DNA of 64,000 nt from Desulfitobacterium dichloroeliminans LMG P-21439 (GTDB lineage: Bacteria; Bacillota; Desulfitobacteriia; Desulfitobacteriales; Desulfitobacteriaceae), in the NCBI RefSeq assembly GCF_000243135.2, contig NC_019903.1, positions 2,642,001-2,706,000 of the forward strand. The letters run 5' to 3'. Below are positions 4,535 through 18,114 of this stretch, one piece after another. A model generated the notes under the pieces. It was not told where the DNA came from, searched no databases, and saw nothing but the letters and a program-made list of their open reading frames with translations. Made by a program: the position numbers and the translations under genes. How positions within the stretch are numbered: position 1 is the stretch's first letter; each line of letters opens with the position of its first letter.

Positions 4535-7375
4535 TTAAGCGAGTTGTCTGTGTACGAGGTTTGCGAAAACTCCGCTATTGCTCATCAGCTCATCATAGGT
4601 ACCACTCTCAACGATTCTTCCCTGATCCATAACGATAATCATATTACAGTTAATAATCGTACTTAAGCGGTGAGCAATGACAATCCGGGTGACCTTCATC
4701 CGGTCAAGGCTTTGACTGACAATGGCTTGAGTTCGATTATCTAGGGCACTGGTAGCTTCATCAAAGAAGAGAATTTTCGGCTGATTGACTATGGCCCGGG
4801 CAATCATCAAACGTTGCTTTTGCCCGCCGGAGATAGTCGAAGCTCCCTCACTAATCATGGTATGCATTCCCATGGGCATGGCCTGAATATCCTCTTCAAT
4901 TCCGGCCATTCTGGCTGCTGCCCAGGCATCGTCGATCGTCAGATAAGGATTAGCACCCACAATATTTGTGAAGATATTCCCAGACATGAGCTGACCATTT
5001 TGCAGTACAACACCCAGCTGCTTCCGGATCGACCGTATATCTACTTTCTCCAGGTCCTGGCCATCGTAATATATATTTCCGGTCTCTGGCTTTTCGAAGC
5101 CCAACAAGATTCTTAGCAACGTCGACTTTCCACAGCCGGAAGTACCCACTAAAGCGACATAATCCCCTTCCTTAATCTGGAGAGATATGTCTTTCAACAC
5201 CAGAGGCCCATCTTCTTTATAACGAAAAGAAATGTGATCCATCTCGATCGAGCCTCGCAGAGGGACAGGGGTGATCTTCGTCTCATCATACTCCGGTAGG
5301 GTGTCTAGAATCGGTTTAGCCCGTTGATAGAGAGGAATCACAATATAAGAACCAATAATTGATTCCGCCAAGGAAGACATAGAAAGGGTAAAGGAGATAA
5401 AAGCTGCATTGAAGCCGATGAACTCCCCCGGTGATAACTGACTATGGCCTGCAGTGAGAGCATAAAAAATGATCATACTGGCAAGGAGGGGGAAAACATC
5501 ATGAAAGGTCGTCAGCCAATTCCCTAGAATCCTCCTTTTATAGACGAATTGACGTTGTTCACTGAACCTCTCAGCCCATCGGTAAAAGGCTCTAACCTCA
5601 GCACCTGCAACACGAAACTTCGTGATACCGCCGATCAACTGCAGCATCATTCCTGAAATTCGATTCGAGATATCTAATATTTTTCGCTCATAGCCCACTT
5701 GCCGGTACCCCAAAAAAAACATGATGAGCAGTGCTACGGCCACTAAGATCGTGGCCACACCGGCGAGCTTGCGGTCATAATAAAACATTAAGACCAGAGT
5801 AAAAACTGAAAAGATACTAGACAGAACAGTATTTAAGGTGACACCCGAGAGAATTTTGCGAATCTGACTGATGCCCATTGCCCGCATTGCCAATTCACCC
5901 GCTGGAAACTGCTTGAAAAACGGCACTGGTAAACTCAGCAAGCGATCCCAAATAGCTGCCTGAATTGCTCCCTCCATTTTTCCCTCTATCCGCAAGGTCG
6001 CCATGCTGCGTACAAACTGAAAAATCATCGTTGCCAAGGCACTAGCTCCCAAAAAAAAGGCGATTTGGACTAAGTGCCCCCTCTCTCCTTCAGGAATAAT
6101 GGTATTAAAGATGATTCCTGTGGCTAGAGGGATAGCTGTCCCTAAGATCCCACCCAAGATACCCATCAAGAAAATCATCAGGAAGTCCCTGCGCCAGCTA
6201 TTTTCCCACCCTAAGTTTAGCAGGTCGCGGGCGGTGATTTTCTTTTCAGCAAAGGGACGATAGAAGACAAAGCCAAAGGCATCGATCTCCTGTGCTGTAT
6301 CGCGATCAACAGTTCTGGTGACCCCTTGTGTATAATCATGAAGGAAATATTTTGTCGGTGCGGAAGGAATTAAGGCAATCGGTCGATGGTCTTTTTTCAT
6401 ATAACCCAGGAGAGGACCGCTATCTTTTGTATACCAATCACCGTGTAAGGCGACTTCCCTCACCCGCACCCGTGAGGCCCGAGCGATATCATCCAGATGC
6501 AGTTCTCTTCGGCTCCCTAGGACTTCTGGGGGGGCGACAATCTTCATCTGCATCGTTTGACCCACTAGGCGACAAGCATCCAGCAAGACATCTCCTGTCT
6601 GATCTGTTAAAGCCTTGGTTTCCACTTTTTCAGTAATTGCCGCTAACTTCGAGATGGCGGTATCCATCAATCGTCGATCGGATTTACTTTTCTCCTCCAG
6701 CCGCTTTTCCTCAGATTCCCTTTTTTTGTCCCAGAGATTGCTTGCTGCTTGCACAACTTGCGAATGGTATCCTGCACGAAGTGAATCCTTGATTAAATAC
6801 TCATACACAGATATGAATCCTTCAGCTGTAGAAGCGACCTCATCCTGAGAAGATCCGAGATCGAAAGCAGTCTTTGCCTTCTGAGAGATGTCTTCGCGTC
6901 CACTAATCTGAGCTAAACTATGAAGCCATTGGCCTATAGCCTTGTTAATCATCTCTGAGATTTCTTTGTCCGCTCCTCGTTGTTCACTAAGGGCTAGACC
7001 TTGTAGTTCTTCATGAGCTGTTCCCTGGAATTTCTTATGGGCTTCCTCGTCAGCTTCTTCGCTGTCCATAAGTAGCCCTGTTAGTTGCCTGATGTCAAAT
7101 CTCAGTAGACTCGAACCCAATAGCCCTGAGACCAACAAGCCTTTTTTGTGAGGGGTACCTTCAGGAGTTATTCCAAAAAGCCAATCGCCAGGACAGGCTT
7201 CAAATAAGAAGGTTTTGGTCCCTGTCTGTAGCTCTTCATCCATAGTCGATAAAAAGACAGCCGCCTTCCCCTGCTCCACTATCCAAATATAGTGGTCTTC
7301 ATGAAGAAACAGTGATTTTTGGCCATCCAGAGGTATTCTCACACCCTCTTGTTTAAAGAAATCCCAGTTATTCAT
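4535..7375 (-). CDS. NHLM-type bacteriocin ABC transporter, permease/ATPase without peptidase domain
   Basis: About 946 residues, long for an ABC half-transporter. The first 390 residues are a cytoplasmic region typical of the second ATPase of NHLM peptide systems (it begins MNNWDFFKQEG and has no C39 peptidase). Membrane segments follow (about 395-690), then an ABC domain with Walker A GTSGCGKST, signature SGGQKQRL and Walker B ILFFDEATSALD, all intact. It probably pairs with the adjacent peptidase-type transporter to export the matured peptide. The ATG at 7375 is preferred over a GTG three codons upstream that overlaps the AGGTG site. It is the last gene of the export operon. Confidence 0.88.
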   Translation of the reverse strand: MNNWDFFKQEGVRIPLDGQKSLFLHEDHYIWIVEQGKAAVFLSTMDEELQTGTKTFLFEACPGDWLFGITPEGTPHKKGLLVSGLLGSSLLRFDIRQLTGLLMDSEEADEEAHKKFQGTAHEELQGLALSEQRGADKEISEMINKAIGQWLHSLAQISGREDISQKAKTAFDLGSSQDEVASTAEGFISVYEYLIKDSLRAGYHSQVVQAASNLWDKKRESEEKRLEEKSKSDRRLMDTAISKLAAITEKVETKALTDQTGDVLLDACRLVGQTMQMKIVAPPEVLGSRRELHLDDIARASRVRVREVALHGDWYTKDSGPLLGYMKKDHRPIALIPSAPTKYFLHDYTQGVTRTVDRDTAQEIDAFGFVFYRPFAEKKITARDLLNLGWENSWRRDFLMIFLMGILGGILGTAIPLATGIIFNTIIPEGERGHLVQIAFFLGASALATMIFQFVRSMATLRIEGKMEGAIQAAIWDRLLSLPVPFFKQFPAGELAMRAMGISQIRKILSGVTLNTVLSSIFSVFTLVLMFYYDRKLAGVATILVAVALLIMFFLGYRQVGYERKILDISNRISGMMLQLIGGITKFRVAGAEVRAFYRWAERFSEQRQFVYKRRILGNWLTTFHDVFPLLASMIIFYALTAGHSQLSPGEFIGFNAAFISFTLSMSSLAESIIGSYIVIPLYQRAKPILDTLPEYDETKITPVPLRGSIEMDHISFRYKEDGPLVLKDISLQIKEGDYVALVGTSGCGKSTLLRILLGFEKPETGNIYYDGQDLEKVDIRSIRKQLGVVLQNGQLMSGNIFTNIVGANPYLTIDDAWAAARMAGIEEDIQAMPMGMHTMISEGASTISGGQKQRLMIARAIVNQPKILFFDEATSALDNRTQAIVSQSLDRMKVTRIVIAHRLSTIINCNMIIVMDQGRIVESGTYDELMSNSGVFANLVHRQLA

Positions 7376-7422
7376 CTCACTCACCTGCCGATCACGACTG
7401 TTTATTTTTCTTCGTCCCCACT

Positions 7423-9600
7423 TTAACCTGTGGCGATCAGTTTGGCATAAGTCCCTGCGGCCTCATATAGCGACTCATGGTTTCCTCGCTCAATAATCTT
7501 CCCCTTTTCCAGCACAATGATCTCGTCACAATCCCGTATCGTACTAAGGCGATGAGCAACAATGATACAAGTGCACCCCCGGTAACGAATATGTTCATCT
7601 ACGTTTTTCTCCGTTATTGGATCTAGGGCACTGGTAGCTTCATCCATAATTAGAATAACTGGATTTCCGGCTAAAGCTCTGGCAATCTCCAGCCTCTGCC
7701 TTTGACCTCCGCTATAATTTTTACCGCCCTCTTCCACTATTTGCTCATAGCCCCCTGACCGAGCAGTAATATCATCATGAATACAGGCATCCTTAGCAGC
7801 CCGGATCATCTCGAACTCTGAAAGGGTTCCATCCCAGAGGGTAATGTTTTCCTTGACTGTTCCATGAAACATACAAATCTCTTGATCCACCATCGCTAAA
7901 GAATTGCTAATCACTTCCTTGGGGAAAGAGGAACGGGGTTGCCCATCAAAAAGAATCTCACCGGACCAAGGATTGTGGATACCGGCGATGATTTTGGCGA
8001 TGGTCGATTTGCCGCTACCGGAGCCGCCGACTAAAGCTACCCGCGACCCGGGTCTTAGACTTAAACTGAAATCTTCAATTAAGGGCGGTTCCAAAATACT
8101 ATAGCCAAAGGTAATGTTCTTAAGCTCCACATAGCCTGAGAGCTTATGCCCCATCGAAAGCGGCGCGTTCGCGCTAGCTTCTCCTTCGTGACTCTCGTGG
8201 ACGCTTTGCTCCCGATCGAGTGGATATTTTAAAACATCGTCTAAGCGATTCATCTCGCCTTCCATTTCCTGAAGCTCAGCTCCGAGTCCCACCAGTCCGG
8301 TGACGGGCATCATAAAGCTACTCATCAAGCTTTGGAAAGCCACCAGCATGCCGATGGTCATTTGGCCATCGAGAATCAAAAAGCCACCAATCACTAAGAC
8401 GAGGGCGTTATTGATGCCAGTTAAAAAACTGGGGAATACAGATAGAAACTGAGAAGAAACCCCTAGCTCCTGTTCTGCATTGAGCAATTTTGCCTGATAT
8501 CCCGACCATTGGGCAAAGAAGTTAGCTTCCGAGCCTGTGGCTTTGAGGGTCTCGATAATTTGCAGACCCGCCATACTTGAGCCGAGCAGTTTTCCCTCAT
8601 CTTGCAGTAATTTGCGGTTCAGATCGACCCTTCGGGCAGATACCGCAATCAAATAGAATACATTAATCAAAGCAATTGCCAAACCTACTAAGGCTAAAAT
8701 CCAGCTATAGCTGAGCATTAACGCAAAGTAAAAGATAATCATGAGGACATTCAGTGCCGTAGTGGCTAGTTTCCCTGACAAGAGCTTCGCTACCTTATCA
8801 TTGCTTTGTATCCTGGAAGTGATATCACCGGCGGCGCGCTGGGAAAAGAATTCACTGGGTAGACGAAAAATGTGCCACAGAAACTGACCGGAGGTGGCTA
8901 AGGCAATCTTCGTTTCTAATCTAAGCAAATAATACTGCTGCATCCAAGTCAGAACTCCTCTGAGCATTGCCGTAATGCCCATGCCCAGCAACAAGGGTAG
9001 CATCCAAGAATCGAGACCGCCCAACAAAATATCATCGACAAATACTCTGGAAAACACGGGTATTACTAAGCCGGGAATAACTAGGGCCAGACCCAGCAGA
9101 ATGATATAGGTTAAAGCTTTCTCCGAACCTTTAAGCCTTTTCTTTAAGGCAGTGCTTATATTTGGTTTCTTATTATCCTTTTGAAATTCAGGGGTTGGTG
9201 TGAAGGAGAGGACAATGCCCGTAAAGGATTGGTTAAATTCTTCTTCGGATACGACCCTCCTGCCTGCTGCCGGATCATTCAAGTATACTTTTCCTTTATG
9301 AAAGCCTTCCAGAACGAGGAAGTGGCTAAAATTCCAGTGGATGACCAGGGGCAGGGGCATCCCACGCAAAGCATCCGGTTCTTTTCGGTAACCCTTCGCT
9401 TCCAGACCATGACCCCGGGCAGCCTTCAGGAGATTACTGGCTTTACTCCCATCCCGGGAAACACCACAATCAATTCTCAATTCCTCCAAGGTAATATATT
9501 TCCCATAATATGCTAGAATCATAGCCAAAGACGCCGCTCCGCACTCCACCGCTTCCATCTGCAGCACTGTGGGAACCTTGACGATTTTCTGTTTTACCAC
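7423..9600 (-). CDS. NHLM-type peptidase-containing ABC transporter (C39 peptidase)
   Basis: 725 residues. An N-terminal C39 peptidase has the catalytic Cys in VECGAASLAMI (Cys20), the His in HWNFSHFLVLEG and the Asp in LNDPAAG. Six membrane segments lie about residues 160-450, followed by an ABC domain with Walker A GGSGSGKST, signature YSGGQRQRL and Walker B ILIMDEATSALD. This architecture cleaves leader peptides after a Gly-Gly-type motif and exports the core. The neighbouring Nif11 precursor ends its leader in AVAGGG, a suitable substrate. GTG start behind GGGAGGG. It lies between the HlyD-like and the second ABC gene in one operon. Confidence 0.92.
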   Translation of the reverse strand: MVKQKIVKVPTVLQMEAVECGAASLAMILAYYGKYITLEELRIDCGVSRDGSKASNLLKAARGHGLEAKGYRKEPDALRGMPLPLVIHWNFSHFLVLEGFHKGKVYLNDPAAGRRVVSEEEFNQSFTGIVLSFTPTPEFQKDNKKPNISTALKKRLKGSEKALTYIILLGLALVIPGLVIPVFSRVFVDDILLGGLDSWMLPLLLGMGITAMLRGVLTWMQQYYLLRLETKIALATSGQFLWHIFRLPSEFFSQRAAGDITSRIQSNDKVAKLLSGKLATTALNVLMIIFYFALMLSYSWILALVGLAIALINVFYLIAVSARRVDLNRKLLQDEGKLLGSSMAGLQIIETLKATGSEANFFAQWSGYQAKLLNAEQELGVSSQFLSVFPSFLTGINNALVLVIGGFLILDGQMTIGMLVAFQSLMSSFMMPVTGLVGLGAELQEMEGEMNRLDDVLKYPLDREQSVHESHEGEASANAPLSMGHKLSGYVELKNITFGYSILEPPLIEDFSLSLRPGSRVALVGGSGSGKSTIAKIIAGIHNPWSGEILFDGQPRSSFPKEVISNSLAMVDQEICMFHGTVKENITLWDGTLSEFEMIRAAKDACIHDDITARSGGYEQIVEEGGKNYSGGQRQRLEIARALAGNPVILIMDEATSALDPITEKNVDEHIRYRGCTCIIVAHRLSTIRDCDEIIVLEKGKIIERGNHESLYEAAGTYAKLIATG

Positions 9601-9632: not shown

Positions 9633-10571
9633 TTAAAAGGGTATGACTTTCTGAATGGGCTTCTCCCGCAGGGTGATAATCTCCGAGCTAATGATGGTCC
9701 CACTCTGAAAAGACATGGGGGGTCCTAGGGGAGATGACCAGCGATAGCCACTTTCTGTTGCATTGTCAGGAATCAAGTCGATCTTAACTAATAAGGGAGC
9801 ACCTTGCCCTGCTAGTAAGTCGACCAAATTTTCATTGCCCAAAGTTTGCAACATACTTTGCGCGGTCGCCGGATACTCCGCTACAGCATTCACCCGCCCT
9901 ATCAAGTAACCATACTCTTCTTTGTTGACTGTGGTCGGGGAGATTTGGCATTCCATGCCGGGACGGAGCAGACCACCTTGTTCGGCTGGAACATAAACTA
10001 CCGCTTCCAGCTTGACTGTATCACCATACTGCTCAAGGGTCGCCAGTGTATCACCCGGTTTGATGATACTTCCTTTGCTAATATTCAACTCTAATATGCG
10101 GCCATCAATTTCTGACACAACTTGAGTTTGGTAGACTAATTCACTGCGGAGCTGCTGTATCTGTTCCTCGATTTTGGCATTAGCCGGATCTTCTCCTTGT
10201 CCATTGTTTTCCACGGCGTCTTGTCTGCTTAATAGTTCATTGATTTGAGCGACTAACTCCGGTTGCTCAATTCTTGCGATGACATCCCCTTGCCTTACCT
10301 CTTGCCCCACCTTCACGCGAATATCACTGATCTGACCGGTAACGTGATGCTGCAGAGAAAACACCCCGCCATTATTCAGAAGAATCCCTTGTCCCTGAAC
10401 CTTCGTGGGAATGCTCCCTAATAGTCCCCAAGCGACCCCACTTATTAGAATCAGCCCTATTGCCACTAGGGCTAGCCAGGCCTTAGGTGAAGTCACCTGA
10501 ATCCGTTGATCAAGCTGCTCCGGAGAGGACAGTCTCGTCAAAGAAACTTCACGAAATAATCCTTTCTTCAT
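9633..10571 (-). CDS. NHLM-type secretion adaptor (HlyD family)
   Basis: 312 residues. A short cytoplasmic N-terminus is followed by one membrane segment (about residues 30-50) and a periplasmic-adaptor-like region with lipoyl-like halves around VTGQISDIRVKVGQEVRQGD and GSIIKPGDTLATL, separated by a short coiled coil. It resembles the membrane fusion proteins of NHLM bacteriocin export systems. In a monoderm it would extend the exporter across the wall zone. It starts 15 nt downstream of the substrate-binding protein gene and 32 nt before the peptidase transporter, so it is co-transcribed. Confidence 0.88.
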   Translation of the reverse strand: MKKGLFREVSLTRLSSPEQLDQRIQVTSPKAWLALVAIGLILISGVAWGLLGSIPTKVQGQGILLNNGGVFSLQHHVTGQISDIRVKVGQEVRQGDVIARIEQPELVAQINELLSRQDAVENNGQGEDPANAKIEEQIQQLRSELVYQTQVVSEIDGRILELNISKGSIIKPGDTLATLEQYGDTVKLEAVVYVPAEQGGLLRPGMECQISPTTVNKEEYGYLIGRVNAVAEYPATAQSMLQTLGNENLVDLLAGQGAPLLVKIDLIPDNATESGYRWSSPLGPPMSFQSGTIISSEIITLREKPIQKVIPF

Positions 10572-10586
10572 ATCTGTACCCCCCCG

Positions 10587-11720
10587 CTACTGCTTAAGAT
10601 ACTCAAATCGTCCGTCCTTGACCTTCTTCAACACTATCAGGTCGCCGATGTCATCACCCTGCTCATCGAACCGGTGCACCCCTATCACTCCCTCCCATGC
10701 TCCCAAGTCCCTTAATCCTTGGGCAACTGTAGTAGGATTAGCCAAATCAGATTTTTCCAAGGCAGCTGCCAGCAAGTTGACCGCATCATACCCTGTAGCT
10801 GCATAAGAGGTAGGTGGTTGCTGATATTTCTGTCGGAAAGCTTCGATAAAGTCTTGGGTCTCGGAACTGGGACGCTGGGGATTAAAGAAGGAACCTACCA
10901 GCAGCCCTTCTGCAGCAGCCCCGGTAGCCCCGGTCAGGGAAAGTGAGTCCCATGAATTTCCGGCAGCTAAGGGCTCCTCAATGTTTACCGCTCTGGCATC
11001 CATCAAAAATTGAGCCCCACCTTCCGCCGCAATCTTGGCAATAAAAATTCCATCAAAACCAAAAGCCTGCCATTTATCATGCAAACGTTCTAAATCCTCT
11101 AGATTGCTATAGTAATTAAAACGATCCACGATTGTTATTCCCTGGGCACCGGCATAGTCTTCAAAAGCATTGGCCAAACCATTGCCGTACGAGTCATCGG
11201 TATAATAGATAACCATCCGCTCATGGCCTTGTTCCGCAAGGTAAATCGCCAATTGCCGAGCGATCTCTGCATCGGAGGGAATATTGCGAAAGACATGGGT
11301 GTACTCATGCTGAGTGAGTTCCGGTGAAGTCGAAGCCGGAGATACCATCGCCAATCCGGCCTGATCATAAATAGAGGATGCCGGTATCGAGATAAAGGAA
11401 TTGCGATGACCGATGACAGCCTGCATCCCTTTATGGTCCGCGAAGGACTGAGCGGTGGCCAATCCCTTCTCCAGCTCTGCCTCGTCATCAGCTTTAAGCA
11501 GGCTCAGCTTGCGACCTTGTATACCGCCCTGATCGTTAATCTCTTGAACGGCCAGATCAAGGCCTTCTTCAAATAAATCATCTGGGGAGGCAAAGGGCCA
11601 GGCAACACCAATGAGGATTTCTTCACTTGGGTTGACCTGGGTACATCCCAGAGGCCATAGGCTGAGCCCTAAAAAGAGCATAATAACTATTGATTTTTTA
11701 ATCATCCTACTTTGCAGCAT
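10587..11720 (-). CDS. LivK-like extracellular ligand-binding lipoprotein
   Basis: 377 residues: a lipoprotein signal (lipobox PLGC near residue 26) and a two-lobed type I periplasmic binding fold (Peripla_BP_6), with LIGVAWPFASPDDLFEEGL at the start and the family blocks AVIGHRNS, MVSPASTSPEL and VIYYTDDSYGNGLA. Such proteins bind branched-chain amino acids or amides for LIV-type importers. No LIV permease or ATPase is nearby; instead it is the first gene of the peptide export operon, under the ECF-type promoter. It may sense or bind the exported peptide or another signal, which is inference. AAGGTG lies 5 nt before the ATG. Confidence 0.85.
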   Translation of the reverse strand: MLQSRMIKKSIVIMLFLGLSLWPLGCTQVNPSEEILIGVAWPFASPDDLFEEGLDLAVQEINDQGGIQGRKLSLLKADDEAELEKGLATAQSFADHKGMQAVIGHRNSFISIPASSIYDQAGLAMVSPASTSPELTQHEYTHVFRNIPSDAEIARQLAIYLAEQGHERMVIYYTDDSYGNGLANAFEDYAGAQGITIVDRFNYYSNLEDLERLHDKWQAFGFDGIFIAKIAAEGGAQFLMDARAVNIEEPLAAGNSWDSLSLTGATGAAAEGLLVGSFFNPQRPSSETQDFIEAFRQKYQQPPTSYAATGYDAVNLLAAALEKSDLANPTTVAQGLRDLGAWEGVIGVHRFDEQGDDIGDLIVLKKVKDGRFEYLKQ

Positions 11721-11842: not shown

Positions 11843-11874
11843 GTTAATACGTGATAATTGATTATTCATTACAA
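11843..11874 (-). promoter_or_regulatory. ECF-type promoter of the peptide export operon
   Basis: On the minus strand TTGTAAT (11868-11874), exactly 16 bp, then CGTATTAAC (11843-11851). The two boxes and the spacer length are identical to those in front of the Nif11 precursor gene. The pattern is of the ECF kind (compare sigma-W TGAAAC-N16-CGTA). The implied leader is about 115 nt. Confidence 0.75.
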
Positions 11875-11879
11875 TCTTT

Positions 11880-11911
11880 CTGTAATGCTCTAAAGCTTTT
11901 TACGTATAAAC
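11880..11911 (+). promoter_or_regulatory. ECF-type promoter of the radical SAM maturase gene
   Basis: CTGTAAT (11880-11886), exactly 16 bp, then CGTATAAAC (11903-11911), a near copy of the other two island promoters. It is back-to-back with the export-operon promoter, the two -35 boxes being 5 bp apart. The gene starts 30 bp downstream. Confidence 0.72.
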
Positions 11912-11940
11912 TAATAAATGGACATTAGGGAGAGAAGTAC

Positions 11941-13335
11941 ATGTACAAAAAGGAAGTGGGTCCCTTTCACCTGTTTGAATACCAAGGCGATCATTATCTG
12001 CTAAATATCGAAAAGATGTCCGCCCATCGAGTGAGCGCGGAACTTTTGCCAATCTTGCATAGGCTCCGGGAGCCGCAAGCAACACTTCCTGCGAGGCAAG
12101 AACAACTGCTCAAGTCATGGGATCTAATTAGGGAAGGCACGGAGAAAGACATATCAGTCGCGAAGATAGAGCCTGTCCCCATCACTTATATGTACCTTTT
12201 CCTCACCCAATCTTGTAATCTTCGCTGTATTTACTGTTATGGCGACGGCGGCGAGTACGGAACCGGCGGCAGTATGGACATTACCACGGCTAGGCAAGCT
12301 GTGGATTGGCTTATCGCCAAGTCGGGGAAAATGAAAAAAATCTACTTAGGATTTTTTGGTGGCGAACCTTTTATTAATTTTGCACTGATGAAAACCACAG
12401 TGGAATATGCCAAATGCAAAGCTCAAGAAGCCCATAAAGAAGTTGCCTTTTATGTGACGACTAACGCTACATTATTAGATGACGAAAAAATCGCTTTTAT
12501 TAAAGAACATCACATTTCTGTACAGATTAGCTTTGATGGTCCAAAGGAAGTCCAAGATGCCCAACGTCCCTATGCCAACGGTCAGGGCTCTTATGACTCG
12601 ATTGTGCCAAAAATCCAAAAATTACTCGCCCTTGCTCCTACAGTTTCCGGACATGCGGTTCTTTGGGGTGATACTGATCCTCAACTTGTTAAGGCTAACC
12701 TGCAAGACCTAGGATTTACCTCCATCTCCCTTTCCCCGGCCTCCCATTCCCTCTTCGCTGATGAATCTGAAAAAAACAGCCTCCGCAAAACCCACGTACA
12801 ACTCCAAGCTTTAGAACAAGAAGCGAAAACCTGGTTGCATCATCTCCGATGCAGAGACATAGATAGCCTCCGTGGCTTAATCGCATGTAGTGCAGGATAT
12901 GGGGTTTACCCCGGTATGATAACCTTGCTGCACAATCGCCATAAATACCATTTTTGTGGTGTCGGTCGCAAGATGGTCGGTGTATCAGTAACAGGAGACC
13001 TCTATCCCTGTCACCGCTTTGTAGGCAACGATGACTATAAATTAGGTCATGTTGACAATGAAAAATTTAACCGAGATGATTATCTACAAAGCCCTGTTTA
13101 CACTCAGGCAAACTGTGCCTCGTGCTTTGCTCGCTATTATTGTGCGGGTGGCTGCCTGCATGATAATCTTAGCTCTAGCGGCTCCCTAGACATTCCCTCA
13201 GAAGAGATCTGCCGCCTCAGGCACCGTGAACTTGAACTGGCCTCAGTCATCGTGTCAAACCTCAGCCCTGATGATCAAGCCTTTTTAGTCAATGAACAAA
13301 TTATTCCTCCCAAACCCTGCCCTCTTGATTTTTAA
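11941..13335 (+). CDS. Radical SAM/SPASM peptide maturase (Nif11-class)
   Basis: 464 residues. An N-terminal RiPP-recognition-like segment (residues 1-80) precedes the radical SAM domain, whose CNLRCIYC supplies Cys92, Cys96 and Cys99 for the SAM-bound 4Fe-4S cluster; GGEPFIN and TTNATLL are typical following motifs. The C-terminal SPASM region has further cysteines (HFCGVG, LYPCHRF, CASCFARYYCAGGC, EEICRLR) for auxiliary clusters. Enzymes of this type form thioether bonds from cysteine in precursor peptides. The Nif11 precursor lies 187 bp downstream on the other strand. GGGAG is 8 nt before the ATG. The exact bond type made is not predictable here. Confidence 0.9.
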   Translation: MYKKEVGPFHLFEYQGDHYLLNIEKMSAHRVSAELLPILHRLREPQATLPARQEQLLKSWDLIREGTEKDISVAKIEPVPITYMYLFLTQSCNLRCIYCYGDGGEYGTGGSMDITTARQAVDWLIAKSGKMKKIYLGFFGGEPFINFALMKTTVEYAKCKAQEAHKEVAFYVTTNATLLDDEKIAFIKEHHISVQISFDGPKEVQDAQRPYANGQGSYDSIVPKIQKLLALAPTVSGHAVLWGDTDPQLVKANLQDLGFTSISLSPASHSLFADESEKNSLRKTHVQLQALEQEAKTWLHHLRCRDIDSLRGLIACSAGYGVYPGMITLLHNRHKYHFCGVGRKMVGVSVTGDLYPCHRFVGNDDYKLGHVDNEKFNRDDYLQSPVYTQANCASCFARYYCAGGCLHDNLSSSGSLDIPSEEICRLRHRELELASVIVSNLSPDDQAFLVNEQIIPPKPCPLDF

Positions 13336-13411
13336 AAAATTATTACACTCTGGCTTGGCACTTGCGAGGGGTGTATTAAACTTAATCCGAGCCTTGTCAG
13401 ACATAAAGGAT

Positions 13412-13446
13412 GGGAGCATATCATTTTGATATGCTCCCCTTGTTTT
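13412..13446 (+). terminator. Terminator of the maturase gene
   Basis: GGGAGCATATCA pairs with TGATATGCTCCC around a 3-nt loop, followed by CTTGTTTT. It lies about 75 bp past the maturase stop. Confidence 0.65.
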
Positions 13447-13522
13447 AGTTTCCTTTAGCGTTGACTAGCATAACTGACCTTGGATTAATCGACTAAGTCC
13501 AATTGGATGCCGCTGAAGAGTC

Positions 13523-13762
13523 TTAGAATAATTCTCTTAAGCCACAGGAATCTAATACGCAACCGCCACCGGCAACAGCATCTAACTCGCTGTCACTCAT
13601 TTCATCGCCAAGATCCTTTAGTTCTGCAGGGCTAAAATCGAAGCCATCCTCTTTTACTAGTACCCGGCGCTCTTCTGCGTCTTTGGCTGCCATAACTTTC
13701 TTGGCAAAGTCCTGATCAGTTTTCATTTTCTCCATGAATGCTTTTGCGGATTCGATACTCAT
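13523..13762 (-). CDS. Nif11-type RiPP precursor peptide
   Basis: 79 residues. The leader (1-66) is Nif11-like: MSIESAKAFMEKMKTDQDFA, acidic stretches and SDSELDAVAGGG at the end, the Gly-Gly-type processing site. The core is only CVLDSCGLRELF (68-79) after Gly67. Cys68 is three residues before Asp71, and Cys73 is four residues before Glu77, a C-x3-E spacing like that used by some thioether (ranthipeptide) maturases. AGGAGGG lies 7-8 nt upstream of the ATG, and an ECF-type promoter sits 55 bp upstream. Leader processing would be by the C39 transporter of the island. The product's activity is unknown. Confidence 0.9.
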   Translation of the reverse strand: MSIESAKAFMEKMKTDQDFAKKVMAAKDAEERRVLVKEDGFDFSPAELKDLGDEMSDSELDAVAGGGCVLDSCGLRELF

Positions 13763-13817
13763 TAAATATTCCCTCCTATTATTTGTGTACCCTGTACACA
13801 GATTAACCTCTTCAACT

Positions 13818-13849
13818 GTTAATACGATTTTCTCTGGATAGTATTACAA
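13818..13849 (-). promoter_or_regulatory. ECF-type promoter of the Nif11 precursor gene
   Basis: TTGTAAT (13843-13849) and CGTATTAAC (13818-13826) on the minus strand, 16 bp apart, identical in both boxes to the export-operon promoter. The predicted transcript start leaves a leader of about 48 nt. It gives the precursor its own transcript, separate from the sigma factor operon. Confidence 0.75.
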
Positions 13850-13881: not shown

Positions 13882-14262
13882 TCACAGTTTGCAGTATGGA
13901 CATCTCCCATCCACAGTAATATTCCTTGACCTTGAACCGCATCTCGGGCATTCTTGCCACCCGCTCTGTTGAGAAAAACCTGCTGCAACATAGTCCAAAT
14001 CCTCTTCACCTAACTCCTCATCTCCACTGAATTCCCTTAAGCCAACCGGATTGACCTGATCTAATTGGGCTAAAATCTTTTCCTTTAAGATATCGCGTAT
14101 CTTACTGTTCGAGCTTAAGTCATTGGTGAGCATCGTCTGAGCTAAGAACAAAAGTTTTCTAATTTCTGGATCCTCCACCGCTCCCAGATCTTTTTCCCCG
14201 GCAATGATCTGCTCCAGATACGTCAAATAAGCATCTGCCTTTTGCTTCTCATTCATAGACAC
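13882..14262 (-). CDS. Zinc-ribbon protein with leader-like segment; putative anti-sigma factor or second precursor
   Basis: 126 residues, not recognised as a named family. Residues 1-80 are helical and acidic. Then comes DEELGEEDLDYVAAG, which looks like the end of an NHLP/Nif11 leader (ELxxxxLDxVAxG), followed by a 32-residue tail holding two Cys-x2-Cys pairs (CPRC and CPYC), a zinc-ribbon pattern. It overlaps the sigma factor gene by 14 bp, an arrangement common for sigma/anti-sigma pairs. So it may be a zinc-dependent anti-sigma factor, or a second modified peptide substrate with four cysteines. Start GTG 14262 or ATG two codons on are both possible. Confidence 0.7.
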   Translation of the reverse strand: MSMNEKQKADAYLTYLEQIIAGEKDLGAVEDPEIRKLLFLAQTMLTNDLSSNSKIRDILKEKILAQLDQVNPVGLREFSGDEELGEEDLDYVAAGFSQQSGWQECPRCGSRSRNITVDGRCPYCKL

Positions 14263-14872
14263 ACATCCCTTGTCTTGCCAAAACTATGCGCAACTGTCGC
14301 ATAGCCCGAAAGAGGATAACCCCTGTATTACTTTCGCTGATGTCAACGAGCTTGGCGATCTCACGATTGCTTAAGCCACTCCAGAACTTCAAAGCAATAA
14401 TCTCTTGTTCACGTTGACTTAAGCAAGCAATGGCCTTGAGGAGGTGATGTTGGATCTCATTTAATTCCACTATAGTTGCCGGATCGGGCTCACGAGCTAC
14501 AATGTTTTTGGTATATTCATCAAGGGAAATAACATGTACTCCCTTTCGGCTTCGATAGTAATCAGTGATGGTATTCCGGGCAATGCGAAAAAGCCAGACA
14601 GAAAAAGGGGCTTTGTCTTTCTGGTAATAGTGATTTTTGGTAAATACTTTCTCAACGATTTGGCTGACCAGATCTTCGGCATCATGATAATCGGCCACCC
14701 GATAATGCACATAATTATTAATCCGAGGAAAGTAATAATTGTAGGACTCTGTAAAGGAGTTCTCATCCTCTTGCACAAGTTCAATCAGTGCTCTTCCTGA
14801 CCCCTGAGTTAATATGGCCGATCCCCCCTCGATCTGAAAACTTCTGCCCGTAGCCTCATTATAAAAATCCAA
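14249..14872 (-). CDS. ECF-type RNA polymerase sigma factor
   Basis: 207 residues. Sigma region 2 covers about 40-110 (DAEDLVSQIVEKVF, PFSVWLFRIARNTITDYYR) and region 4 about 140-195 (LSQREQEIIALKFWSGLSNREIAKLV, helix-turn-helix). Regions 1.1 and 3 are missing, as in ECF factors. It starts with TTG behind GGTGG. The next gene begins inside its last codons, so the two are translationally coupled. Its likely targets are the three TGTAAT-N16-CGTAT promoters of the island. No such promoter is visible in front of its own gene, so its expression may depend on the upstream MalT-like regulator. Confidence 0.9.
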   Translation of the reverse strand: MDFYNEATGRSFQIEGGSAILTQGSGRALIELVQEDENSFTESYNYYFPRINNYVHYRVADYHDAEDLVSQIVEKVFTKNHYYQKDKAPFSVWLFRIARNTITDYYRSRKGVHVISLDEYTKNIVAREPDPATIVELNEIQHHLLKAIACLSQREQEIIALKFWSGLSNREIAKLVDISESNTGVILFRAMRQLRIVLARQGMCVYE

Positions 14873-15050: not shown

Positions 15051-17969
15051 TTAGTTCTCGATGCTCGCGATGGAATGTCCCATCTTCGCACACCGCCGTA
15101 TCAATTCCCTGGCCTTGGACTTTTCTCCCGCTTCCGCGCACCCCTCCAGCAGGACCGCCGCAGCTCTAAGAAAGAGTTCCTCAAGGTGGATTCTTGTACT
15201 TTCAGCCCACAGTGCCTCCAAGTCATTCAGATAGCGTCCAGTGTAGTGTTCCACAACCTTTTGGGCGTTCCCAAAGCTTGGCTGCTGTGCGAACACTGCT
15301 ACAGCTTGCTGGAAAGCATCGAGATCACAGCTAATTTCAGCCATCTTTAGACGGTACATACCACCCTCATATACGATAGGGTTACCGGCCCCTACACTCT
15401 CAAAAGCCCGTCGTATCTCACCGCGGCGGGTATGAAATAAACTGGTCACATTTGCCTCGCTGTCCCACCACAGGTCGTTCAAGATATTTTCTTTACTGAC
15501 CCCTTCACGATGCTCTAGTAGATAAGCTAAAAGCTCACGAGCTTTCTGAGTGCGGATCTTAATCGGGTTTTTCAGCTCATGGGCAGGAGCCATGTAAAAG
15601 GTTCCCAGGGTTTTGATATAAATCCGAGCACAAGTATACTCTCCGTACCTGAAAAGCTCGCGGGTATAGTCCGGCATAATCCCTTCATCTGCTGCCTGCT
15701 TCAAGACAGCAGCAAAAAGCGGCTTAAAGCGAATGTAGTAGCGGTGATCATTTTGACGGGAAAGTTCCAGAAAGCGGCAGATATAACTCTGAGCCTGCTC
15801 CGCATCACCCTCTTCCAAATAAATGGCCGCCAGCTTGCCATAAGCAAGGGTTGCATAGGCATAGCAGCCAATTCCCTCGCCGATAGTGATCGACTTTTTA
15901 TAGTATTCTATATACTGTTCCTTATTCTTCTTCATCACTTGCAGGGCATTGGCCATCCGCCCAAAGGCCACGGTCTGAAAGAAGGGGGTGGTATCTTCGA
16001 TAAGCAAAAGTATCTCGGCAATAATCTGCTCAGCTTTATCCCGATGTTCTAAGATTTCCGCACAAGCCTTCCATATCTTCACAAATAACCAGTGCTCGCG
16101 GGTGCTGCGATTTAAAATAGCATATTCTTCCGCCATGTTCAGATAACGATCAGAGACTGAAAAATCAGCAGCTTCTCCCAAGTAATATTTTAGCTGCTCA
16201 GCGGTATTAAGAGTTTCGGCATACAAGAGATAATTGATGCTGAACTCTTCATGAAGACCCAATTGGCGCATCCGATAAAGCTCCGCATCTAGCAAGGGCA
16301 GCGCCTTTTCTTCCTGCCCGGCAATCTGGTAAGCTTTAGCGGCATAGACTCCCACCCCATGGCGCATCAGCTGATCCTGCTCTTCTTGAGGAATGGTCAG
16401 AGACTTTTCATAAGCCTTCAAACAATTTTTATAATCTCCTTTATAAAAATAGATGACCGTGAGATAGCGCTCAAACCAGCCTTTAATTCTTAAATCTCCA
16501 TTCACTAAGCATTTATTCATCATAGCCATTGTTAAATCCATGGCCTCGGATAGCTGGGAGATGAGCGTCAGGTTGTGAATCTTTTCAATGAGAACTCCGT
16601 ACCAGACTGACATGGGTGTACCTTCCAGAAGGGGTAGCAGACAATCTAGGCACGCATTGCTCTCCGCGAAGGAAGACCTGTTGCGCAGTACTCTTGCCGA
16701 ATGGGTCATAGCCAGTATATAAAAGTCCTTGTCTTCACTTATTAACTGGGGGGTTGCTACTCTGAGGTATTTTTCTGCCTGGTAAAAGTCGCCGTGATCA
16801 GAAAGGTAAATCCCTTTGATTAGTTGAACCCTTGGGGTTAGCTCAGCGTGGCGAACCTCAAGAAAATCAAAGTACCTTTTTAAATCTCTGTTGCACCCTT
16901 TGGCAATGAGTTCTCCTGCCATTGCACTGATACAGTCATGAATAATTATCGTATCCTCAACTAAGAAGGCGTACTCAGCTGCCCGCCCATAATCTCCGCT
17001 TGCGTAGTAGCTATCCTTGGCCTTCTGCAAGATTCTCCATCCCGTACCCTCATCATTTTGTTGTAAAAAAGTACGGAATAAGGTGTGGTAGCGATAAGAG
17101 GTAGTAGACGTTCTCAAGGTAAAGAGGTTTCTGTGCACAAGTTCTTCGAGGATTTTCTGGGAATGGTCGATATCTAACAAACGATTACAGGTTACAACCT
17201 CCAGCTCCGGGAGCCGAGAAGTGGCTTTCAAGAAATCTCGGATTTCCTCCGTTAGCCCCATGAATATTTCATTAAACAGATAGCGGCTAATATCTCGCTC
17301 AGCCTCAAGCTTCGCTAAAGAGAGCTCTTTATTGCCCTCTGCCGCCAAACGATAGGATTGAATGGCTAAAGTCCATCCCTCAGTGGCTGAAAAGGCGGCC
17401 TCATCTGAAAATCCCCATAGTCTTGTCGCTTCCTCCTGGCTGAAGCTCAAATCATTTTTGGTGAGCTCAGTCACTCCACCAGCCATTTTTAAGCGAAAAA
17501 GACCACTCCATAATTCATGACGACTAGCCATGATCAGAGTAATCTGAGGAGGACAGCCTTTGATCATTTCTGCAAGAAGATCTGTTAACTGTGGATTGGC
17601 AATCACATGCACATCATCCATGATAAGGGTCAGCCTATTGCTACCCATTGCTTTTAACAACGCAGAAAGAACAACCGGCACAAAGGTATCACTCCCCGTA
17701 AAGGGAATATAGTCTGTGGCATGAAACTCAAACTCGACCAGTCTCTCCCTAAGCGAAAATTCCAGGTGCTGTAAAAAGAATAACGGCTCACGATCCTTAC
17801 CATCCAGAGCCATCCACACAACATCTTCACGTCCTCTTGCGTATTGCATCAAGAGGGTGGTCTTACCATAGCCTGCATCAGCATGTATGTAGGTAAGCTG
17901 AGTGCCGGGGAGACCAATCTTATCCAACAAATGGGGGCGTTGTAGGAGTGCCTCAGTGCCTTTTGGCAT
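15051..17969 (-). CDS. MalT-like ATPase regulator with C-terminal SARP/BTAD domain
   Basis: 972 residues. The N-terminal STAND-type ATPase has Walker A ADAGYGKTTLL (about 29-39) and Walker B TLIMDDVH. A long TPR-like helical solenoid (about 330-760) follows. The C-terminal part has a winged-helix segment (TLGTFYM, KARELLAYLLEHREGVSKENILNDLWW) and a bacterial transcriptional activation domain (SCDLDAFQQAV, YTGRYLNDLEALWAE). Such proteins are ligand-controlled activators. It lies directly upstream of the sigma operon with direct repeats between, suggesting it turns on the sigma gene. ATG 17969 has GAGG 6 nt upstream; a TTG farther up is an alternative. Confidence 0.88.
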   Translation of the reverse strand: MPKGTEALLQRPHLLDKIGLPGTQLTYIHADAGYGKTTLLMQYARGREDVVWMALDGKDREPLFFLQHLEFSLRERLVEFEFHATDYIPFTGSDTFVPVVLSALLKAMGSNRLTLIMDDVHVIANPQLTDLLAEMIKGCPPQITLIMASRHELWSGLFRLKMAGGVTELTKNDLSFSQEEATRLWGFSDEAAFSATEGWTLAIQSYRLAAEGNKELSLAKLEAERDISRYLFNEIFMGLTEEIRDFLKATSRLPELEVVTCNRLLDIDHSQKILEELVHRNLFTLRTSTTSYRYHTLFRTFLQQNDEGTGWRILQKAKDSYYASGDYGRAAEYAFLVEDTIIIHDCISAMAGELIAKGCNRDLKRYFDFLEVRHAELTPRVQLIKGIYLSDHGDFYQAEKYLRVATPQLISEDKDFYILAMTHSARVLRNRSSFAESNACLDCLLPLLEGTPMSVWYGVLIEKIHNLTLISQLSEAMDLTMAMMNKCLVNGDLRIKGWFERYLTVIYFYKGDYKNCLKAYEKSLTIPQEEQDQLMRHGVGVYAAKAYQIAGQEEKALPLLDAELYRMRQLGLHEEFSINYLLYAETLNTAEQLKYYLGEAADFSVSDRYLNMAEEYAILNRSTREHWLFVKIWKACAEILEHRDKAEQIIAEILLLIEDTTPFFQTVAFGRMANALQVMKKNKEQYIEYYKKSITIGEGIGCYAYATLAYGKLAAIYLEEGDAEQAQSYICRFLELSRQNDHRYYIRFKPLFAAVLKQAADEGIMPDYTRELFRYGEYTCARIYIKTLGTFYMAPAHELKNPIKIRTQKARELLAYLLEHREGVSKENILNDLWWDSEANVTSLFHTRRGEIRRAFESVGAGNPIVYEGGMYRLKMAEISCDLDAFQQAVAVFAQQPSFGNAQKVVEHYTGRYLNDLEALWAESTRIHLEELFLRAAAVLLEGCAEAGEKSKARELIRRCAKMGHSIASIEN

Positions 17970-18114
17970 TATATTCCTCAACCCTATCCCCCCTTCAATC
18001 GTCAGCAATTTAAGAACTCTTACCTTTAAAATTAGACCCTCTCCACTAAAAATCCTTCTCCCTTACGTTCCGCAGTAATTTAATTTTCAAGTATGCGGAT
18101 CTCCTTCACTTACC

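Follow-up and report, generated by a model that had tools for sequence, protein, structure and literature searches.

The Nif11-type RiPP island of Desulfitobacterium dichloroeliminans LMG P-21439 contains three putative promoters of one ECF class, located before the precursor, maturase and exporter genes. Their reading by the adjacent ECF sigma factor is well supported, as judged from genome uniqueness, conservation of the sites, matches across the phylum and the autopromoters of sister sigma factors. The small protein P126, encoded directly behind the sigma gene, is likely an anti-sigma factor, and its tail resembles the leader of an exported peptide. The best explanation of the whole island is probably a sigma regulon with P126 as the inhibitor and possibly with an exporter acting on P126. 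Comparison of sequences supports the promoter class, the tie between the sigma family and this class, and the view that an anti-sigma-like partner was remodelled with an exporter-type leader. The island lies in a stretch of 64,000 nucleotides, referred to below as the window, and coordinates are those of the window. The arrangement is not unique to the D. dichloroeliminans genome and recurs across Bacillota.

Promoter sites and the genes behind them

The Nif11-family RiPP precursor (13523–13762, minus strand; PF07862, 1.3e-16; TIGR03798, 82.7 bits, cut-off 32.3) consists of the leader EMSDSELDAVAGG and the core GCVLDSCGLRELF. The convergent gene (11941–13335, plus strand) encodes a radical SAM/SPASM nif11-like peptide maturase (TIGR04064, 697.1 bits, cut-off 518.7), and a bidirectional terminator-like stem of 12 pairs, present on both strands, separates the two genes (13412–13438). 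The first gene of the exporter operon, which is located entirely on the minus strand, encodes a substrate-binding lipoprotein-like protein (SBP; 10587–11720; PF13458, 4.8e-48), whose place is kept in relatives. It is followed by an NHLM HlyD-like membrane fusion protein (9633–10571; TIGR03794, 331 bits, cut-off 156.2), NHLM ABC transporter 1 with a C39 peptidase (7423–9600; TIGR03796, 1151.5 bits, cut-off 853.3; PF03412, 1.3e-37) and NHLM ABC transporter 2 (4535–7384; TIGR03797, 1006.6 bits, cut-off 709.4). All three exporter models score above cut-off, which places the system among the NHLM exporters. The HlyD-like protein has 312 residues and matches its 421-position model in two stretches, so that the middle is missing; similarly short relatives occur in L048, L049 and L050.

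The promoter of the precursor (13818–13849, minus strand) and that of the exporter operon SBP-HlyD-ABC1-ABC2 (11843–11874, minus strand) both read TTGTAAT-N16-CGTATTAAC, and the maturase promoter (11880–11911, plus strand) reads CTGTAAT-N16-CGTATAAAC. All three are conserved in relatives. An earlier note on this DNA had described these sites as TGTAAT-N16-CGTAT promoters, and re-reading of the window gave the same sequences and coordinates; the exporter and maturase sites are back-to-back, as claimed, with their 7-mers 5 bp apart.

Zero-mismatch copies of TGTAAT-N16-CGTAT in the window are limited to these three sites. The genome-wide search that the earlier note had called for found the exact core four times in 3.62 Mb, the fourth copy (799729) being located within a long coding ORF. 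With up to one mismatch, TGTAAT-N16-CGTATTAAC matches only the three island sites in the whole genome; at two mismatches, 9 matches are obtained versus 11 for the reversed-pattern control. The short core with two mismatches occurs 19 times in the window, 15 being expected. This is background, and the signal is therefore carried by the exact matches. Occurrence at many unrelated genes at background frequency, which would have spoken against the proposed promoters, was thus not observed genome-wide. When the island was scanned for sigma-70 promoters, their number did not exceed background.

Syntenic islands are found in the same family (G034, G035, G009 and G017) and in G187, G157 and Candidatus Formimonas warabiya. 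The motif is kept before the nif11 precursor in L048, L049, L050, L052, L081 and L090, and before both the SBP gene of the exporter operon and the radical SAM maturase in these loci and in L080. The sites are mostly exact, some having one mismatch, and occupy the same positions despite diverged spacers. The maturase and exporter sites are again back to back, except in G187, where an extra gene sits between the pair and the precursor has no site before it. The consensus of 24 related-island sites is TGTAATa-N-CGTATTAAC, in which the spacer letters are free and the spacer length is fixed at 16.

Across the order (73 genomes), TGTAAT-N16-CGTATTAA gives 15 matches, 12 of which lie in RiPP/sigma islands (reversed control, 0). 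The 31-bp motif has 12 matches in 9 of 398 genomes of the phylum (control, 2). Of these, eleven belong to loci of this ECF sigma family or to NHLM/Nif11 loci, and the twelfth, before a lipoprotein-like gene in one of the same genomes, is a near-copy of one G128 promoter. The motif is rare in genomes lacking this sigma family.

The ECF sigma factor as the proposed reader

The sigma gene (14249–14872, minus strand; start codon uncertain) encodes sigma-2 and sigma-4 regions (PF04542, 2.2e-13; PF08281, 4.1e-11) and scores above the cut-off of TIGR02937, so the protein belongs to the ECF factors. The nearest family model, that of BldN (TIGR02952), is matched with 147.1 bits against a cut-off of 206.45, which leaves the protein outside that family; the best solved relative is 6dxo. 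RNA polymerase carrying this sigma factor would recognise all three TGTAAT-N16-CGTATTAAC promoters, and precursor, maturase and exporter would be switched on together, as the earlier note had proposed; comparative sequence evidence supports this joint control.

A scan of genome contigs for relatives of the sigma factor gave 80 loci. In most close relatives (Clostridium, Paenibacillus and others), the gene behind the sigma gene encodes a partner protein about 300 residues long, in which a single hydrophobic segment is located near residue 80; the DUF4367 domain is present in 10 of 10 such membrane-type partners scanned. Of 29 close membrane-type loci, 21 have the exact motif within 250 nt upstream of the sister sigma gene, as against 1 of 14 among the most distant loci (reversed control, 0). 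This putative autoregulatory site is the best evidence that the sigma family reads TGTAAT-N16-CGTAT.

The motif is absent before the sigma gene of the window, so autoregulation of that kind is not expected there. Its production appears to be set by other regulators. A MalT-like (LAL/SARP-type) regulator encoded upstream (15051–18008, minus strand; NF003420, 141 bits, below cut-off) is a candidate input and may control the sigma gene; relatives of this regulator adjoin the sigma gene in L051 (56%) and L090 (61%). A two-component system occupies this place instead in L049, L050, L080 and L081. In G017, the sigma gene of the RiPP island is a 60-residue remnant (L052:10441-10623), and a full sigma gene with a shortened P126 and a MalT-like regulator is located about 80 kb away (L051:7348-8194), which suggests that the sigma factor acts in trans in this genome.

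The sites could be assigned to other proteins. Eighteen regions of the genome score above the ECF model cut-off, and the other ECF-type sigma genes could in principle read the three promoters, the neighbouring sigma gene being incidental. This is very improbable, since the motif tracks this particular sigma family in distant genomes, precedes sister sigma genes and is rare in genomes lacking the family. The motif could also be the binding site of a transcription factor and not a promoter; one example would be the MalT-like regulator, which the window, L051 and L090 all encode upstream of the sigma gene. Such an assignment is hardly credible, because several islands with a two-component system in this place still keep the motif, and membrane-type loci have it without any MalT-like regulator. 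The paired boxes, separated by an invariant 16 nt and lying at a constant distance upstream of the genes, fit an ECF promoter.

P126 and a possible coupling to export

A probable anti-sigma gene between the sigma and precursor genes was missed in the earlier account. P126 (13882–14262, minus strand) is encoded directly downstream of the sigma gene with a 14-nt overlap, and this gene order is the same in relatives. Its N-terminal domain (residues 1–75; 14038–14262, minus strand) aligns to the cytoplasmic domain of the DUF4367 membrane partners of the sister sigma factors (hhalign score 69.3, E 2e-13, probability 98%), the scores of 200 column shuffles and of the reversed profile being at most 14.9 and 11.8, respectively. 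By a simple hydropathy window P126 has no hydrophobic segment, and it has no Pfam match; it thus lacks the membrane segment and the DUF4367 ectodomain. In the place of the membrane segment stands a 13-residue leader-like stretch, ELGEEDLDYVAAG (residues 83–95; 13978–14016, minus strand), with a cleavage-type motif of Nif11/NHLP leaders, and then a CPRCG...CPYC zinc ribbon (residues 105–124; 13891–13950, minus strand). The same layout characterises the leader-tailed partners of NHLM/Nif11 loci, in which a Nif11-type leader motif replaces the membrane anchor and DUF4367 ectodomain, in most cases with a zinc ribbon behind it. P126 quite probably acts as an inhibitor that binds the sigma factor.

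Scored against the published leader consensus (PMC2887384), ELGEEDLDYVAAG reaches 38, a value attained by 0 of 1000 shuffles; the island precursors tested score 51–55, and membrane-type partners do not exceed 26. The shuffle test is weaker for the homologues in L048, L050 and L081 (12–16 of 1000 as high). All 14 aligned P126 homologues retain the leader segment, but not all retain the zinc ribbon. The leader of P126 ends in AG, and that of several homologues in AA, not in GG. Neither the Nif11 domain nor TIGR03798 is found in P126, no family being matched at E 0.001, and homologues such as those in L054 and L080 give weak end-of-leader family matches only.

The AlphaFold model of P126 (8 alignment rows) is of low confidence (pLDDT 67.5, pTM 0.35), and that of the N-terminal domain (27 alignment rows) is of middling confidence. 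Fold searches with this domain (Foldseek, VIA-align) returned weak unrelated matches and no anti-sigma structure, and a sequence-profile search found no solved relative. Assignment of P126 to the zinc anti-sigma (ZAS) domain was dropped, as the N-terminal domain is devoid of Cys and the zinc ribbon is C-terminal.

Leader-tailed partners go together with NHLM exporters. Exporter genes are present at 11 of 14 leader-tailed loci versus 0 of 47 membrane-type loci (Fisher p 9e-10). For these counts, a simple hydropathy window served to call membrane segments, and each locus was read up to about 10 kb on each side, so that an exporter farther off would escape. At the level of the order, a P126 match was obtained in 8 genomes, all of which fall among the 11 of 73 that have a C39 NHLM exporter (p 1.2e-8); the loci are kin by descent, and both p-values are therefore optimistic as to independence. 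In a sigma tree with 80 rows, each of the two labels, leader-tailed and membrane, needs two changes (shuffled mean about 12.7), which corresponds to one or two origins.

The following switch could be proposed. The N-terminal helical domain of P126 would keep the sigma factor inactive. P126 is predicted to be soluble, unlike the membrane-anchored partners of sister sigma factors, and to end in a Nif11-type leader motif and zinc ribbon, so the cognate NHLM C39 peptidase-exporter may recognise it. Since the cleavage tag of the candidate anti-sigma factor is of the type found on the exported peptide, export may control expression: cleavage or sequestration of P126 would free the sigma factor and tie transcription to export capacity. 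The full cycle, in which a working exporter frees the sigma factor for synthesis of precursor, maturase and more exporter, is a tentative model, and the action of the exporter on P126, judged from the leader motif, is similarly possible without being the expected outcome.

In the register of the precursor motif, with hydrophobic residues at -12 and -7, the predicted cut is after VAAG in P126 and after VAA or TAA in homologues such as those in L048, L050 and L081. After cleavage by C39-type peptidases, the leader part stays in the cytosol, and cleavage alone would thus not carry the N-terminal domain of P126 out of the cell. It is a speculation that a fragment with an AA end might meet the same proteolytic fate as the trimmed forms of the anti-sigma factors RseA and RsiW; trimmed RseA is a protease substrate (PMC10202637).

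Two other roles of P126 have to be weighed against the coupling to export. P126 could be a plain soluble anti-sigma factor, its leader-like tail being ignored by the exporter and its zinc ribbon sensing metal or redox state; CxxC pairs are kept in most leader-tailed homologues, and zinc-binding anti-sigma factors are a known type of sensor. This role is rather unlikely, as conservation is higher in the leader segment than in the zinc ribbon (missing in L051, L083, L085 and L086), and this type of tail occurs together with NHLM exporter genes. Alternatively, P126 could be a RiPP precursor or secreted signal with no inhibitory effect on the sigma factor, its leader being a retained anti-sigma-like domain. 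A leader-type motif followed by a core-like Cys-rich segment would suit such a product, and Nif11-like peptides of Desulfosporosinus lacus have similar zinc-ribbon tails. It is nevertheless improbable, given the homology of the N-terminal domain to partners of sister sigma factors, the position of the gene directly behind the sigma gene (overlapping it in the window) and the absence of the Nif11 domain.

Several related proteins deviate from this layout. A sigma factor in L072:1486-1701 has a 71-residue partner, barely more than a DFS segment and LSDEELDMAVAAG, which represents a minimal leader-tailed form. In L055:7249-7677, a leader-tailed P126-like protein follows a radical SAM gene, and no sigma gene of this family adjoins it. 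The P126-like CxxC zinc-ribbon tails of D. lacus belong to Nif11-like peptides at L054:6498-6848 and L054:9492-9821. At L090:10581-10967, the tail of the P126-like protein gives a weak match (E 2.4e-6) to NF049953, zinc ribbon-containing (seleno)protein DG, which falls far short of the cut-off.

Comparison with known systems and related loci

Pairs of an ECF sigma factor and a membrane anti-sigma factor (RpoE-RseA, SigW-RsiW and BldN-RsbN, the last being closest by sequence model) share with the island a sigma-2/sigma-4 ECF factor, a partner gene directly downstream and a two-box promoter class. The differences concern P126, which has no predicted membrane segment and ends in a RiPP-leader-type motif and zinc ribbon, and the targets, which here are a Nif11 RiPP and its exporter. 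In the review PMC8103513, soluble anti-sigma factors appear as truncated membrane ones, and its passages on them report no such tails.

NHLP/Nif11 (N11P) systems comprise the TIGR03798 precursor, the TIGR03794/03796/03797 exporter and the leader motif ELSDEELEAVAGG (Haft et al. 2010, PMC2887384); the word sigma is absent from this founding paper. The precursor and exporter families are common to those systems and the present island, in which the leader motif is also found on a regulator. In flagella, FlgM, the anti-sigma factor of sigma28, is itself exported by the apparatus whose genes sigma28 controls. The logic proposed for P126 is alike, the proteins being unrelated; it differs in that the C39 peptidase would cut P126 and leave its N-terminal domain inside the cell.

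An ECF sigma factor and an anti-sigma factor reportedly control the RiPP clusters of the lantibiotics microbisporicin and planosporicin. These are actinobacterial class I lantibiotics, in contrast to the Nif11/NHLM island described here, and we know of no link of such clusters to NHLM exporters, Nif11 precursors or leader-tailed anti-sigma factors. A literature search on Nif11/NHLP loci and on DUF4367 proteins with sigma factors, most subscription journals being outside its scope, found no description of ECF control of such loci or of the present arrangement. ECF control of RiPPs as such is already known from actinobacterial lantibiotics.

Most of the widespread Nif11/NHLP clusters have no known product. 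One sigma factor with a short, highly specific promoter could serve as a handle to switch on silent clusters, and the motif alone can reveal new or unlinked ones, for example on D. lacus contig 26 and in G128. If the exporter acts on P126, transcription would be coupled to secretion in a new way, through an anti-sigma factor with a leader-type tail.

Several motif copies in G128, located by the motif alone, surround an NHLM exporter and a Nif11-like precursor (L188:1418-1674), and the near-copy of the G128 promoter is found on a separate contig (L182:1531-1615). On a second contig of D. lacus (G012), the motif stands before two NHLP-like precursors (L076:7483-7918 and L076:2905-3492), one site being exact and the other having one mismatch. 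No sigma gene of this family was seen in the L076 stretch, and these sites are a possible unlinked branch of the regulon. Pairs of sigma and P126-like genes in L083:9577-10930 and L084:8250-9603 adjoin an NHLP-like precursor and a 746-residue protein, which is possibly a cyclodehydratase, this being a guess. The motif precedes the precursor at both loci and, in L084, the gene of the 746-residue protein as well.
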